Below are positions 5,008 to 18,831 of a DNA stretch of 33,881 bases, one piece after another. Each line of letters begins with the position of its first letter. The first letter of the stretch is position 1. Below the pieces are notes generated by a model, which worked only from the letters and a program-made list of their open reading frames with translations, was not told where the DNA came from and searched no databases. The stretch is from Chloroflexota bacterium (lineage in GTDB: Bacteria; Chloroflexota; Dormibacteria; CF-121). Position numbers and translations under genes: made by a program. The stretch is from contig VBEE01000046.1 in NCBI GenBank assembly GCA_005881715.1, positions 501-34,381 of the forward strand, read 5' to 3'.

Positions 5008-6204
5008 GTGGGCTTCCTGCATCGGCCGTTGAGCCCTCGATCGATGCGCGCCATCCTCTGGGTGGCGGGCCTTATCGCGTTGCTCGTGGCCATCGTCGGC
5101 TGGGTCGGGCCGGCCGAGCCGTACCAGGCGCCCTGGGCCTGGATCAGCTTCATCGGCATGTGCATCGTCGACGACTTCCTGCTGGGCTCCAAGGACGATG
5201 CGCGCTGGGGCGAGCTCCCGAAAGTCGCGCTCCTGGCCGCGGTCATCGTATTCCGGCGTCACCCCGAAATTACCGTGCTGGTGGCGGTCACCGCTGCGCC
5301 GCTGGCGAGCCTGCTGAAGGGCCAGACTTGGCCCACCCAGGTGACGACCACCAGCCAATGGGTGCTCGCCGCGGTCTTCGGTGCGGGGACCTTCCGGCTC
5401 GTCGGCTTCGGCGACACCGCCCACTTTGTTGCCGCGACGGCGGCCGTCATGGTGGTCTATTACGCCCTGGGCCCGGTCCTCAGCGCGACGCTGGAAGCCG
5501 GCCTTGGCGGAACCCCGCTTCGCCGCGCGTTCGCCCGTCATCGCCGGCTGGCCATCTCGCTGGAATTTGCCGGCGTGCTGCTCGCGCTGGCGTGGCGCAC
5601 CCCGTTCATGGAGCCGGCCGCCTTGAAGGTTGCCGACGGCGCGCTCGTGACGGTCGCCGGAATCGTTCTCGGCTTTGTGCTGGGCGGACGATCCAGCCGC
5701 GTTTTCAAGGCCAGCCCTTCCCTGCCGGTGCGCCCGCTGTTGGGCGCGGGCGCCGTTCTGCTCCTGAGTCAACTGACGCCGTCTCCGCTTTCGTGGTTGC
5801 TGCCGCTCGCCCTGGCGATCGCGGCCGGGATCTGGGCGGCCTGGCGGCACGTCTACCCGGTCGTCTGTGGCGCCCTGGGCGCCTACTGCAACGAGCTGGT
5901 GCGGGCGGCGAATGGTGGGCGGATGCCGGTTGAAGGCCATGGCATGCTGTCGACCCTCGGGAACCGGACTGACACCTATGTCCTCAGCGGGCCGCACACA
6001 AACTTCGCCTGGCTGGACGACCGGTTCCAACTGCCTGCCCCGTTTCCCGGCATCGCCAGCGCCGGCGACATCCTGATCGCCGTCGGCATGGCGTGGTTCG
6101 TCGCGACCTTGATGTTGCGCCCCGTTCACCAGGCCGCGGCCGGTGATGCGGCGGCGGACGAGGACCTGGACGGCGCTTCCTCGGTGGACATCGCGGCCGC
6201 CTAA
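5008..6204 (+). CDS. Multi-TM protein with DUF5317-like C-terminal region
   Basis: About 10 hydrophobic segments; C-terminal CNELVRAANGGRMPV...DILIAVGMAWFV resembles DUF5317. Confidence 0.6.
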   Translation: MGFLHRPLSPRSMRAILWVAGLIALLVAIVGWVGPAEPYQAPWAWISFIGMCIVDDFLLGSKDDARWGELPKVALLAAVIVFRRHPEITVLVAVTAAPLASLLKGQTWPTQVTTTSQWVLAAVFGAGTFRLVGFGDTAHFVAATAAVMVVYYALGPVLSATLEAGLGGTPLRRAFARHRRLAISLEFAGVLLALAWRTPFMEPAALKVADGALVTVAGIVLGFVLGGRSSRVFKASPSLPVRPLLGAGAVLLLSQLTPSPLSWLLPLALAIAAGIWAAWRHVYPVVCGALGAYCNELVRAANGGRMPVEGHGMLSTLGNRTDTYVLSGPHTNFAWLDDRFQLPAPFPGIASAGDILIAVGMAWFVATLMLRPVHQAAAGDAAADEDLDGASSVDIAAA

Positions 6205-6296
6205 CGCCGAGGCGAGACCCGCGCTGGGTCGAGGCGGTGGCGTTGGGTCTCAAGGCCCTTGTGTGAAGCCGGCCCGCATGGTTCTTTGGTCCGGAC

Positions 6297-7157
6297 ATGC
6301 GGATCTGGCTGCTGCTCCTCGCCCTGCTCGCGCCGGCCGGCACCGCGGCGCACCTGCCGCTGACCGGAACCCCGCCCGGTCAGGTCGAGCTGTATGAGCT
6401 CACCCCGGCGCCGGCGGTGCCCGCCATCAGGGCCCGGGCGGCGATCCTGCTCGACCTCGACAGCGGGACCACCCTTTATGCGCGCGACGCGCAGGGGCGG
6501 TTCCCGCCGGCGAGTTTGACGAAGGTGGTGACGGTGCTCACCGCTCTCGACGTGCTCGGGCTGGACCAGGTCGTCACGGTCCCCGCCTCCATCAATCAGT
6601 TGCCCTGGGATTCGACCCGCATGGGACTGCGGGCCGGCGAGCGGCTGACGGTGCGCGAGCTGATGTACGGGGTTTTCCTCAACTCCGGGAACGACGCCGC
6701 CATCACGCTGTCAGAGGCGGCCATGCCGCGGACGGCCTTTATCGCCCGGATGAACGCCAAGGCTGCGGCGCTCGGGATGACTGACTCGCACTTCGTGAAC
6801 CCCATCGGCCTCGATGACGCCGGCCTGTACACGTCCGCCGCCGACCTGGCGAAAGCGGCCATCGCGCTGCGTTCCCGCTTCCCCGAGGTTGCGGCGATGG
6901 CCGCCGTGCCCGCGATCACGCTGCCGGCCAGCGCCATGCACCACGCGCTCAAGCTCTACAACCTCAACGAGCTGATCCGAACGTATCGGGGCGCGACCGG
7001 GCTCAAGACGGGCTGGACCGGACGAGCCGGCGGCTGCCTGATCGCCACCGCCACCCGCGACGGCCGGCATCTCTTGGCAGTCGTGATGGGCTCTCCGCGG
7101 GTCTTTGATGAGGTTGGTACGTTACTCGACTATGGCTTTGCGTCTCCGCCGGCGTAG
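6297..7157 (+). CDS. D-alanyl-D-alanine carboxypeptidase (S11 penicillin-binding protein)
   Basis: Signal peptide; SxxK motif PPASLTKV; SGN motif (LNSGNDAA); KTG motif (GLKTGWTGRAGGCLIATATRDG). Confidence 0.92.
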   Translation: MRIWLLLLALLAPAGTAAHLPLTGTPPGQVELYELTPAPAVPAIRARAAILLDLDSGTTLYARDAQGRFPPASLTKVVTVLTALDVLGLDQVVTVPASINQLPWDSTRMGLRAGERLTVRELMYGVFLNSGNDAAITLSEAAMPRTAFIARMNAKAAALGMTDSHFVNPIGLDDAGLYTSAADLAKAAIALRSRFPEVAAMAAVPAITLPASAMHHALKLYNLNELIRTYRGATGLKTGWTGRAGGCLIATATRDGRHLLAVVMGSPRVFDEVGTLLDYGFASPPA

Positions 7158-7557
7158 CACGATCTATTTCATCTTGCTGGCCGGGTTGCTGGCGATCATC
7201 TGGGCCAGCTATCAGAGCGTCAACCAGGCAACAGCGCCGGCCGGGAAACCGTTGGGCGACTTGCTGACCGCGCTGGACGCCGGACAGGTGGCGAGTGGCG
7301 TGTTCACGACCGATGGCGAACGCGTCGACTGGGTCGACAACCACGGGGGACGGTACCGGACCCTTCTTCCCGCCGGATATTCGACAACCCTGGTCGACAA
7401 GTTTCACGAAAGCCAGGTCGCGATCGACGTGACGCAATCACCCGCGTCGAGTGTGTGGCTGGCCGTGGTGCTGCCAAATGTCATTCTGTTTCTCGTCATC
7501 GGGGGGTTCCTCCTGTACGTGGTTCGACGGATGGGCGGACGAGCTCCTCGCGTTTGA
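7132..7557 (+). CDS. Orphan FtsH N-terminal (TM-ectodomain-TM) protein lacking the AAA and protease domains
   Basis: [16 protein letters not shown] and [15 protein letters not shown] are also present in the N-terminus of the full FtsH at 16792; ORF stops after the second TM helix. Confidence 0.85.
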   Translation: MALRLRRRSTIYFILLAGLLAIIWASYQSVNQATAPAGKPLGDLLTALDAGQVASGVFTTDGERVDWVDNHGGRYRTLLPAGYSTTLVDKFHESQVAIDVTQSPASSVWLAVVLPNVILFLVIGGFLLYVVRRMGGRAPRV

Positions 7558-7601
7558 TCACGGGCGCGCGATGGTAACCTAGCTCAGGCACGCCCCGGTT
7601 T

Positions 7602-7621
7602 TGCGCCGCGGGCGCATTTTT
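7602..7621 (+). terminator. Terminator-like hairpin in mfd leader
   Basis: TGCGCC-GCG-GGCGCA 6-bp perfect stem followed by TTTTT. Confidence 0.5.
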
Positions 7622-7637
7622 GCATGGCCGCCGTCTC

Positions 7638-10600
7638 GTGACCGACACCCTGCTCGAATTGATCGACCGCCTCCCGGCCCGTGGCCGGCTGGAGGCCTGG
7701 TGGAGCGCGCCCGCAGCGCGTCTTGACGCGCACGGCCTGCCTGCCAGCGCCCTGCCGGTGTTCGCGGCGTGGCTGGCCATCCGCGCCCGGCGGCCGGTCC
7801 TGGCCCTGGTGCCGGATCCGGAGGGATCCTTCCAGGAAGCCGGCGCCTGGTTCAGGGAGGATGTCCGGACTGTCGTTTTTCCCGCCGTTGAGACGCTCCC
7901 GTTTGATCGGCTCGCACCGGACGAGGAAACCGTGCGGCGACGGCTGGAGGCCCTCGATGCGGTGGCGTCCGGCGACCCGCTGGTCGCCTTCTCCTCCTGG
8001 ACCGCGATCACCCGGCCGACGCTGGGCGTAAAGGCCCTCCAGCAGTGGGGCTTCACGTTCACACCGGGCCAGACCTACACACTCGATGACCTGCTGCGCC
8101 GTCTGACCACGCTCGGCTACCGGCGCGAGCCCCTGGTGCAGGCCCGCGGTGAGTTCAGTCTTCGCGGCGGCATCCTGGACTGCTTCCCGCCGGGGCGGCG
8201 GCGCCCGCTTCGGGCGGAGTTCTTTGGTGACGAGCTCGAGTCCCTCCGCGAGTTCGACGTCGAAGGCCAGGGCTCGGTCGGCAGCGTCGCCGCCGCCCGG
8301 ATTCTGCCGGCAGCCGAGCTGATCCTGACTCCTGAGGCGGTGCATTCCGCCGACATCCCGCTTCGGGAGCTCGACTTCGGTACGGCCCTCCCCGAAGTCC
8401 GTGATCAGTGGCTGTCCGATATCGAGCGGGTTCGATCGGGCGCGTACTTCGACGGCATCGAGGGCTTCCAGGCCTACCTCGATCCCTCGCAGCCGACCCT
8501 CCTGGACCATCTGCCGGCCGGCACGTTGATCCTGGCCATCGACGCGCGACGATCGCTGGCCCAGGCCGAGCAGCGCGAAAAGGAGCTGGCCGAGCTCGTG
8601 GCGGTCGAAGTCGATCGCGGCGAGCTGCCCAAAGGGTTGCGGACGGGATTGGTCTCCCTCGCCACTCTGGGTCGAGCCGCCCAGGCCTGGCGCACCATCG
8701 ATGTGGCGCGGGGTGGCGGTGAGCTGGGGTCGATCGACCTCGGCTTCGAGGCGGTGGACGCCTACGCCGGCCGGATCGACGCCTTCTCCGATCGGGTGCG
8801 CAGCGACGCGCGGGAAAAGTCGCGCGTGTTGATCGTGACCCAGCAAGAGCCGCGCCTGCGGGAGCTGCTCGAGGACCGTGACGTCTACCCGGCCGGTGGT
8901 GTGTTCGTCTGGTCGCAGACGCCGCTGATGCCGGGGCTGGTCGTGCTCGGCAACCAGCCGGTCGCCCAGGGATTTCGGGTGACCTCGCAGCAGCTCGAGG
9001 TCTATGGCGACACCGACCTCTTCGGCGGGCTACGCCAGCGGGTTCGCCGCGGCGTGGTGCGGGCACGTACCGCGAGCTTTCAGCTGGAGTTCGAGCCCGG
9101 CGACCTGATCGTCCATGTCGATCACGGCATCGGACGGTTCGTCGGCATGCGCCTGATGGGGGAGGACGGTCAGGGGCGCGAATACATGCAGCTCGAGTAC
9201 GCCGAGGGCGACAAGCTGTACGTGCCGGTCGAGCACCTCGACCGCGTGCAGAAGTACGTCGGTGGCGGCGACGCGGCGCCCAAGCTGCAGCGGCTGGGCT
9301 CGGGGGAGTGGGATCGGGCCAAGCGCAAAGTCCGCGAATCGGTCGAGGAAGTCGCGCGCGATCTTCTGGATCTCTATTCGCGGCGCCAGCTCGTCGAGGG
9401 CCACGCCTTCTCCGAGGATGGCCCCTGGCAGCAGGAGCTCGAGCAATCGTTCCCCTATGACGAGACGCCCGACCAGATCCACGTCATGCAAGAGATCAAA
9501 GCCGACATGGAGGACTCGCGCCCGATGGACCGGCTGGTCTGCGGGGACGTGGGCTTTGGCAAAACGGAGCTGGCGGTGCGCGGCGCGTTCAAGGCGGTGA
9601 TGGACGGCAAGCAGGTGGCGATCCTCGTGCCCACCACCGTCCTCGCGCAACAGCACTTCCTGACCTTTGGCGAGCGCTTTCAGCCGTTCCCGGTGAAGGT
9701 GGACATGCTGTCGCGCTTTCGTTCGGACGCGGAGGCGGCCGACATCTTGCGGCGATTGCAGGTGGGCGAGATCGATGTGGTGATCGGGACCCACCGCCTG
9801 CTGCAAAAGGACGTTCGGTTCAAGGATCTCGGGCTCGTCATCCTCGACGAGGAGCAGCGCTTCGGCGTCATGCAGAAGGAGAAGCTCAAGCAACTGCGGG
9901 CGTCGGTAGATGTATTGTCGCTGTCCGCCACGCCGATCCCGCGCACGCTGCACATGTCGCTGGCGGGCATTCGCGATCTCTCCGTGATCCAGACTCCGCC
10001 GGAGGAGCGGCTACCGATCAAGACCTTCGTCACCGCCGACGATGACGACCTGATCAAAGAGGTCATCCAGCGCGAATTGCAGCGCGGCGGCCAGGTGTTT
10101 TACGTCTACAACCGGGTCCAGACGATCAAGAAGGCCGAGGAGCGCGTCAAGCGATTGGTGCCGCAGGCCCGCGTCGTGGTCGGCCATGGCCAGATGCCGG
10201 AGTCGACGCTCGCCGATGTCATGGTCAAGTTCGTCAAGGGCGAGGCGGACGTGCTGGTCTGCTCCACGATCATCGAGTCGGGTCTCGATATCCCCAATGC
10301 GAACACCATCATGGTGGTCGATGCCCACCGGATGGGCCTGGCGCAGCTCTACCAGCTGAGGGGCCGGGTCGGCCGCGCCGGGCAGCGGGCCTACGCCTAC
10401 TTCCTGTACAACCCGTTGAGGTCGCACACCGAGAACGCCGACAAGCGGCTCGATGTCATCTCCGAGCTGCATGACCTGGGGTCGGGCTTCAAGCTGGCGC
10501 TGAAGGATCTCGAGATCCGGGGCGCCGGCAATCTGCTTGGCACCGAGCAGCACGGCGCGATTGCCGCCGTCGGGCTCGAGCTCTACAACACGATGTTGCG

Positions 10601-11093
10601 CGAGGCGGTCGAATCGCAAAAAACCGGGACGCCGGTCGAGATGCCGGCCGGGCTGACGCTGGATCTTCCCGTCGAGCACTTCCTGCCACGCGAGTACGTG
10701 CCTGATGAGAAACTGCGGCTGCAGGTCTATCACGACCTGGCGGCGGTGGAGGACGAGCAGGGCCTGGAGGCGGCGGACCGCAATCTGGCTGACCGATTCG
10801 GCAAGCCGCCCGCGCCGGTTCGCAACCTTCTTTACGCGTTGCGCGTCAAGCTGATGGCCCGTGCGGCAGGCGTGGCCGCCATCGACACCGACGGCGACTG
10901 GCTGGTGATGCGCCTCCCGGCTGGCTGGAATGGCGACGAGCGCCGGTTGGAAGCGCAGTTCCGATCGATCCTCTATGTCCGGTTTGGCAAGGTGCGAATT
11001 TCCCTCACGCAGGCCGGGGCGCAATGGAAGGAGCGGTTGATCGACGTCCTGGGCGAGATCGAACGCCTGGGACGCGTCGCCATTGCCGTCTGA
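7638..11093 (+). CDS. mfd: Transcription-repair coupling factor Mfd
   Basis: CarD/RID-like region (GDLIVHVDHGIGRFVGMRL), helicase motifs DRLVCGDVGFGKTELAVRGAFKA, DEEQRFGV, LSATPIPRTL, QLRGRVGRA; TTG start at 7620 also possible. Confidence 0.96.
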   Translation: MTDTLLELIDRLPARGRLEAWWSAPAARLDAHGLPASALPVFAAWLAIRARRPVLALVPDPEGSFQEAGAWFREDVRTVVFPAVETLPFDRLAPDEETVRRRLEALDAVASGDPLVAFSSWTAITRPTLGVKALQQWGFTFTPGQTYTLDDLLRRLTTLGYRREPLVQARGEFSLRGGILDCFPPGRRRPLRAEFFGDELESLREFDVEGQGSVGSVAAARILPAAELILTPEAVHSADIPLRELDFGTALPEVRDQWLSDIERVRSGAYFDGIEGFQAYLDPSQPTLLDHLPAGTLILAIDARRSLAQAEQREKELAELVAVEVDRGELPKGLRTGLVSLATLGRAAQAWRTIDVARGGGELGSIDLGFEAVDAYAGRIDAFSDRVRSDAREKSRVLIVTQQEPRLRELLEDRDVYPAGGVFVWSQTPLMPGLVVLGNQPVAQGFRVTSQQLEVYGDTDLFGGLRQRVRRGVVRARTASFQLEFEPGDLIVHVDHGIGRFVGMRLMGEDGQGREYMQLEYAEGDKLYVPVEHLDRVQKYVGGGDAAPKLQRLGSGEWDRAKRKVRESVEEVARDLLDLYSRRQLVEGHAFSEDGPWQQELEQSFPYDETPDQIHVMQEIKADMEDSRPMDRLVCGDVGFGKTELAVRGAFKAVMDGKQVAILVPTTVLAQQHFLTFGERFQPFPVKVDMLSRFRSDAEAADILRRLQVGEIDVVIGTHRLLQKDVRFKDLGLVILDEEQRFGVMQKEKLKQLRASVDVLSLSATPIPRTLHMSLAGIRDLSVIQTPPEERLPIKTFVTADDDDLIKEVIQRELQRGGQVFYVYNRVQTIKKAEERVKRLVPQARVVVGHGQMPESTLADVMVKFVKGEADVLVCSTIIESGLDIPNANTIMVVDAHRMGLAQLYQLRGRVGRAGQRAYAYFLYNPLRSHTENADKRLDVISELHDLGSGFKLALKDLEIRGAGNLLGTEQHGAIAAVGLELYNTMLREAVESQKTGTPVEMPAGLTLDLPVEHFLPREYVPDEKLRLQVYHDLAAVEDEQGLEAADRNLADRFGKPPAPVRNLLYALRVKLMARAAGVAAIDTDGDWLVMRLPAGWNGDERRLEAQFRSILYVRFGKVRISLTQAGAQWKERLIDVLGEIERLGRVAIAV

Positions 11094-16728: not shown

Positions 16729-16791
16729 ACTCGTTCTGCTTCGTGCCGACTAACAGGTTCCTTAAAAATCCGGTGTTAAGATAGCGTGGCC

Positions 16792-18831
<2,040 letters not shown>

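Follow-up and report, generated by a model that had tools for sequence, protein, structure and literature searches.

The N-terminal module of FtsH (PF06480), in which an ectodomain is placed between two transmembrane (TM) helices, is represented by structures such as 2MUY, 4V0B and 4M8A, and the role of this ectodomain is still poorly understood because it has been studied as part of the protease. Assembly of the module does not depend on the remainder of the enzyme, since the periplasmic and TM part of Escherichia coli FtsH, having lost the cytosolic domain, was still found to be hexameric by cryo-EM (PMC13097134); that fragment is a degradation product formed during purification. Loss of a catalytic activity among FtsH paralogues is exemplified by the chloroplast FtsHi and Ycf2–FtsHi pseudoproteases, and FtsHi proteins, despite the loss of the zinc site, keep the AAA+ motor. 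Small membrane-associated proteins are in turn known as FtsH inhibitors, including lambda CIII and Bacillus SpoVM, two short amphipathic helices without relationship to FtsH (PMC1838920). No published description of a gene encoding the FtsH_ext module alone was found in the literature searched, the coverage of which was partial.

The window analysed here, a stretch of 33,881 nucleotides from a metagenome-assembled genome (MAG) of Chloroflexota (G000), contains such a gene, hereafter called the orphan, which is a real, lineage-restricted FtsH paralogue. It resembles the FtsH N-terminal module in its fold, in the TM–ectodomain–TM order and in the predicted N-in/C-in topology, and displays clear sequence homology to the FtsH of its own genome; it differs from FtsH in being a separate gene devoid of AAA+ and M41 domains, in its relaxed TM helices and in a set of conserved ectodomain residues of its own. 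In contrast to the FtsHi proteins, with which it shares the loss of catalytic activity, the orphan lacks the motor as well as the protease. It could be likened to CIII and SpoVM as a small membrane-associated protein, as one of its possible roles would require, but it is 141 residues long, derived from FtsH and composed of two TM helices and a folded ectodomain. The E. coli hexamer is the closest parallel for assembly of an N-terminal module lacking the cytosolic domain, although in the present case the module is encoded as such by a gene. The relevant features of the window are the following.

6297–7157, + strand: S11 D-Ala-D-Ala carboxypeptidase (PBP), 286 residues, the upstream overlapping gene (Peptidase_S11, E 5e-51).
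7132–7157, + strand: 26 nt overlap between the orphan and the carboxypeptidase gene, the orphan ATG being embedded in the PBP D-Y-G codons.
7132–7557, + strand: the orphan, a headless FtsH paralogue of 141 residues, comprising TM1, the FtsH_ext ectodomain, TM2 and a short basic tail (ORF, Pfam, BLASTP, orthologues).
7159–7215, + strand: TM1, residues 10–28 (AF2 helix 3–31; relaxed constraint among orthologues).
7246–7425, + strand: ectodomain core, residues 39–98, the most constrained part (omega; FtsH periplasmic-domain fold).
7453–7524, + strand: TM2, residues 108–131, with the LPN..L...IGGF motif kept (comparison with orthologues and FtsH, AF2).
7525–7554, + strand: short cytoplasmic tail of 10 residues, ending where FtsH continues into the AAA domain.
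7638–11093, + strand: mfd, the downstream gene, with an inferred GTG start at 7638 (sequence, Pfam).
16786–18831, + strand: full-length FtsH, after tilS; the FtsH lineage is the source of the paralogue (Pfam, tree).

The open reading frame of the orphan extends from the ATG at 7132 to a stop codon at 7555–7557, the TTG at 7105 given by the ORF finder being a mechanical start. The first-pass annotation had described this frame as homologous to only the TM–ectodomain–TM part of FtsH, with TM1 identical, TM2 nearly so and the ectodomain strongly diverged, and this description was borne out. The BLASTP match to the FtsH of the window (44% identity over 133 residues, 112 bits, E 6e-34) spans FtsH residues 1–130 only; the two proteins are identical over a 16-residue stretch of TM1 and over the first 15 residues of TM2, and 20 of the 76 aligned ectodomain residues are common to both. 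FtsH_ext is the sole Pfam domain detected, with a score (23.2 bits) just below the cut-off of 25.5 bits, which the full-length FtsH encoded in this genome barely exceeds (25.9 bits). The orthologues from G004 and G005 score above this cut-off (35.3 and 39.3 bits, respectively), that from G002 scores below it (20.9 bits) and that from G013 gave no hit at E 0.01. By its profile matches and its fold, the orphan belongs to the FtsH_ext domain family (PF06480). It is not an FtsH protease (TIGR01241/M41): Pfam detected FtsH_ext and no AAA+ ATPase domain (Walker A/B), no M41 zinc protease domain was found with Pfam or NCBIfam, and the score against the NCBIfam FtsH_fam model was 12.2 bits versus a cut-off of 600. 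Between the orphan and mfd, no remnant of an AAA or M41 domain was found.

The AF2 model of the orphan (mean pLDDT 77, pTM 0.48, from an alignment of 34 sequences) consists of a long TM1 helix, an ectodomain with a helix–strand–strand–strand–helix–strand arrangement and a long TM2 helix. Its best matches among solved structures are the FtsH periplasmic domains 2muy (r.m.s.d. of 1.4 Å over 68 columns, E 3e-6), 4v0b and 4m8a, as well as FtsH in complexes; the orphan alignment profile gave no match when searched against PDB sequences. Since each TM helix is bordered by arginines at its inner end, the topology should be that of FtsH, with both termini in the cytoplasm.

The full-length FtsH of the window has a peculiarity of its own, a 38-residue tandem duplication in the AAA lid region (17809–18036). 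The two 114 nt copies differ at 13 positions and encode identical protein segments, and the FtsH genes of relatives read at this region have one copy; the duplication is either real or the product of a strain-mixed assembly.

The search for related genes covered 61 genomes and then 110 genomes of the class, and orphan-type matches were confined to the Chloroflexota genus of the window. Intact copies are present in five genomes (G000, which is that of the window, G002, G013, G004 and G005), always between the PBP and mfd genes; the other four are 50–70% identical to the window copy, and every one stops just past TM2. That all of these genomes are fragmented MAGs, and that the other short FtsH_ext frames inspected in the class and the phylum turned out to be contig ends or genes disrupted by runs of N or breaks in frame, might suggest that the orphan is itself an FtsH cut short by truncation or frameshift, or an artefact of assembly. 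However, the five intact orthologues come from separate assemblies, lie on contigs of their own and have the same ends, and no AAA sequence was found downstream of any of them, so that a broken gene or sequencing error was rejected and its probability is negligible.

Elsewhere, no other credible FtsH_ext-only gene was found among the 110 genomes of the class, nor among the top matches listed for 251 genomes of the phylum. The short FtsH_ext frames in G132, G021, G055 and G051 are contig-end truncations, and those in G000 (C14 and C27) and G119 belong to FtsH genes in which runs of N or breaks in frame occur. The window genome has at least two more FtsH paralogues (L129 and L130, on C14 and C27), both broken in this manner. 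A phage origin of the orphan was also considered and rejected, as no match was found in viral contigs.

All orphans form one clade (support 100/99) grouped with the FtsH of the family, and therefore descend from a single partial duplication. In a tree built from six proteins of the region, G013, which carries the orphan, is the deepest-branching member of the genus; the simplest history is for this reason the presence of the gene in the ancestor of the genus followed by several independent losses, the single origin being most simply placed before the sampled members diverged. G004, which also carries the gene, is placed among relatives that lack it, a position that would require either many losses or a transfer. 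The gene is missing or broken at nine of the 14 resolved loci, a count that leaves aside the unresolved locus of G001. It is absent from G008, the closest relative, and from G006, G003, G009, G010, G011 and G012, and damaged copies were found at the same PBP–mfd locus in G014 and G007. The G007 remnant retains only about 20 N-terminal codons. In G014 (L004, G014:C89), TM2 is deleted and the frame altered, with TM1 kept and the ectodomain intact (omega of 0.21 against G002, NG86), which could represent either early decay or a form with one TM helix. The damaged copies and the clean losses elsewhere indicate that the function of the orphan is dispensable.

Such a record of absence and damage is what a functionless duplicate in decay would leave behind. 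Against this explanation, which is highly unlikely, stand the open frames kept at 50–70% identity in five lineages with an omega of 0.21 (codon model), the invariance of 23 of the 60 ectodomain core residues and the retention of the start codon. The first-pass annotation had proposed a search of related genomes for AAA-less FtsH_ext proteins at this locus, and had named absence from relatives or decayed frames as signs of a recent truncated copy; in the five intact lineages, the window included, the orphan instead persists under purifying selection.

The distribution of this selection along the protein was assessed by comparing regional omega values of the orphan and of FtsH from the same five genomes in 60 bootstrap pairs, the estimates being limited by the five sequences, the short regions and the high dS. 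For the ectodomain core (residues 39–98), the bootstrap median was 0.13 (0.07–0.22) in the orphan versus 0.28 in FtsH, and was lower in the orphan in all 60 pairs. The TM helices displayed the reverse, with an omega of 0.19 in the orphan versus 0.056 in FtsH, higher in 60 of 60 pairs, corresponding to a three to four times weaker constraint. Over the entire ectodomain (residues 29–107) the two proteins did not differ (0.22 in both), and the contrast is therefore located in the core; within the orphan, the core omega was below that of the TM helices in 83% of the bootstrap pairs, which is a trend only. Invariant positions follow the same pattern, amounting to five of 19 in TM1 and 11 of 24 in TM2 of the orphan versus 15 of 19 and 22 of 24 in FtsH, and to 23 of 60 versus 22 of 60 in the ectodomain core, though the orphans diverge more overall. 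Leu41, Arg64, Arg76 and Leu87 are fixed in the orphan only (Thr, Glu, Lys and Ile in FtsH), as are Asp89, Lys90 and His92 in the second helix. From these patterns we infer that the ectodomain is the working part of the orphan.

These results also bear on the idea that the orphan could act as a dominant-negative or adaptor subunit of FtsH, co-assembling through its TM helices and N-domain and giving rise to hexamers that are short of motor and protease subunits or have an altered docking surface. The fold and topology of the FtsH N-module are compatible with this role, as are the hexameric state of the FtsH periplasmic domain and TM region in published structures and models (PMC13097134, PMC8943139) and the near-identity of the TM helices in the window and in G002, where TM1 shares 16 and 15 of 19 residues, respectively, with that of the resident FtsH. 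However, TM1 identity drops to 12, 11 and 8 of 19 in G013, G005 and G004, residues fixed in TM1, TM2 and the linker of FtsH vary freely in the orphan, and the ectodomain is merely 25–37% identical to that of the FtsH of the same genome across the five genomes. The earlier argument that retained TM faces and a changed sensor domain pointed to insertion into FtsH is reversed across the orthologues; it describes one genome, since in the relatives the TM helices drift and the ectodomain core is held. Mixed FtsH hexamers are the main rival, somewhat unlikely and less favoured because of the relaxed constraint on the TM helices.

The orphan occupies a conserved neighbourhood, pth–DUF5317–PBP–(orphan)–(methyltransferase)–mfd–RidA … tilS–ftsH, the order of which is kept wherever contigs permit; in G017, from the sister genus, DUF5317 directly precedes mfd and both PBP and the orphan are lacking. 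In G003, G009, G011 and G012, a small SAM-methyltransferase gene (PF13649, TPMT/TehB-like; for example L088:4993-5583) follows the carboxypeptidase gene at the PBP–mfd site; in G010, a gap of this gene's size lies at the same position. In G004, the orphan is followed by the methyltransferase gene (L096) with overlapping stop and start codons.

The overlap with the carboxypeptidase gene, already recorded in the first-pass annotation and 26 nt long, links the orphan to a cell-wall enzyme gene and in this respect supports the cell-envelope link suggested there. The orphan ATG arises within the PBP codons GAC TAT GGC, which encode Asp-Tyr-Gly of the conserved LDYGF motif. The Tyr codon of this motif reads TAT at each of the seven loci with an orphan or its remnant and in none of the seven without, six of which have TAC and one TTC in place of the Tyr codon; such a split would arise by chance once in 3432 if the loci were independent and, as they are related, its real strength is less. 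This codon usage suggests that the orphan genuinely starts at the ATG at 7132 and that its translation follows on from that of the carboxypeptidase, to which it is most likely to be coupled given the position of its start codon inside the last codons of the upstream gene. In G004 there is an alternative internal ATG past the PBP stop codon, from which the orphan may start, and coupling would not necessarily be universal. The promoter of its own predicted earlier for the orphan was not confirmed: scanning the + strand from 5900 to 8000 gave no sigma-70-like site, and the orphan starts within the upstream gene.

The possibility that the orphan substitutes for a lost membrane anchor of the carboxypeptidase was examined and is unsupported. 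The enzyme persists in genomes without the orphan, and its paralogues likewise terminate at LDYGF or shortly beyond it and have no C-terminal anchor either; nothing therefore indicates that the enzyme needs a tether.

Downstream, mfd starts about 80 nt past the orphan stop codon, and its leader (7572–7641) has a distinctive arrangement. An extended −10-like element, TGGTAACCT, at 7572–7580 is followed by a terminator-like hairpin with a T-run (7591–7621) and by a five-codon mini-ORF (ATG at 7624, TGA at 7639–7641), the stop codon of which overlaps the mfd GTG start. The hairpin is kept in ten of ten aligned leaders, including that of the sister-genus G017, as are the position and length of the mini-ORF and its stop/start overlap, while the codons of the mini-ORF vary (MAAVS, MVRNR, MAAIS, MFTEK); the genome has a single instance of this pattern. 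It possibly reflects attenuation or translational coupling of mfd.

The explanation that best accommodates these observations, to which we give a probability of roughly 45%, is that the orphan is a motor-less FtsH N-module serving as a membrane-tethered, non-catalytic envelope adaptor that holds or senses an extracytoplasmic partner and is probably co-translated with the DD-carboxypeptidase. In such an adaptor, TM1 would enter the membrane from the cytoplasm, the FtsH_ext domain would lie outside it, and TM2 would lead back to the short basic tail, with neither ATPase nor protease attached. The gene lies between a secreted DD-carboxypeptidase gene and mfd, with translation presumably coupled to the former; this co-translated enzyme, SPFH (HflK/C-type) proteins and the ectodomains of FtsH itself are candidate partners of the FtsH_ext fold. 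As the gene has been lost again and again, its function is likely to be conditional. Because the E. coli fragment is hexameric, the N-module can assemble without the motor, and self-assembly or mixed assembly of the orphan is plausible (PMC13097134).

A related alternative is a self-assembling motor-less ring that would vie with FtsH for SPFH/HflKC-type partners without touching FtsH. The ability of the N-module to be hexameric on its own, the selection acting on the ectodomain and the presence of SPFH genes in each of the 18 genomes searched are consistent with this role; on the other hand, SPFH–FtsH binding in Chloroflexota is an assumption and loss of the orphan does not coincide with loss of SPFH genes, which makes a competing ring distinctly unlikely. 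Returning to the envelope adaptor, its most far-reaching form, in which the orphan would link peptidoglycan trimming to FtsH-type membrane quality control and be the first ATPase-less, FtsH-derived stand-alone gene, is unlikely.

The shifted constraint and the embedded start codon are more interesting than the decoy role originally proposed. A natural gene that consists of this module alone and is selected for its ectodomain separates the function of the ectodomain from proteolysis and makes it testable. Entry of the orphan into FtsH hexamers would make it a host-encoded regulator built from the N-terminus of the enzyme itself, and an interaction with the carboxypeptidase or with SPFH proteins would give a clue to what the FtsH ectodomain recognises.
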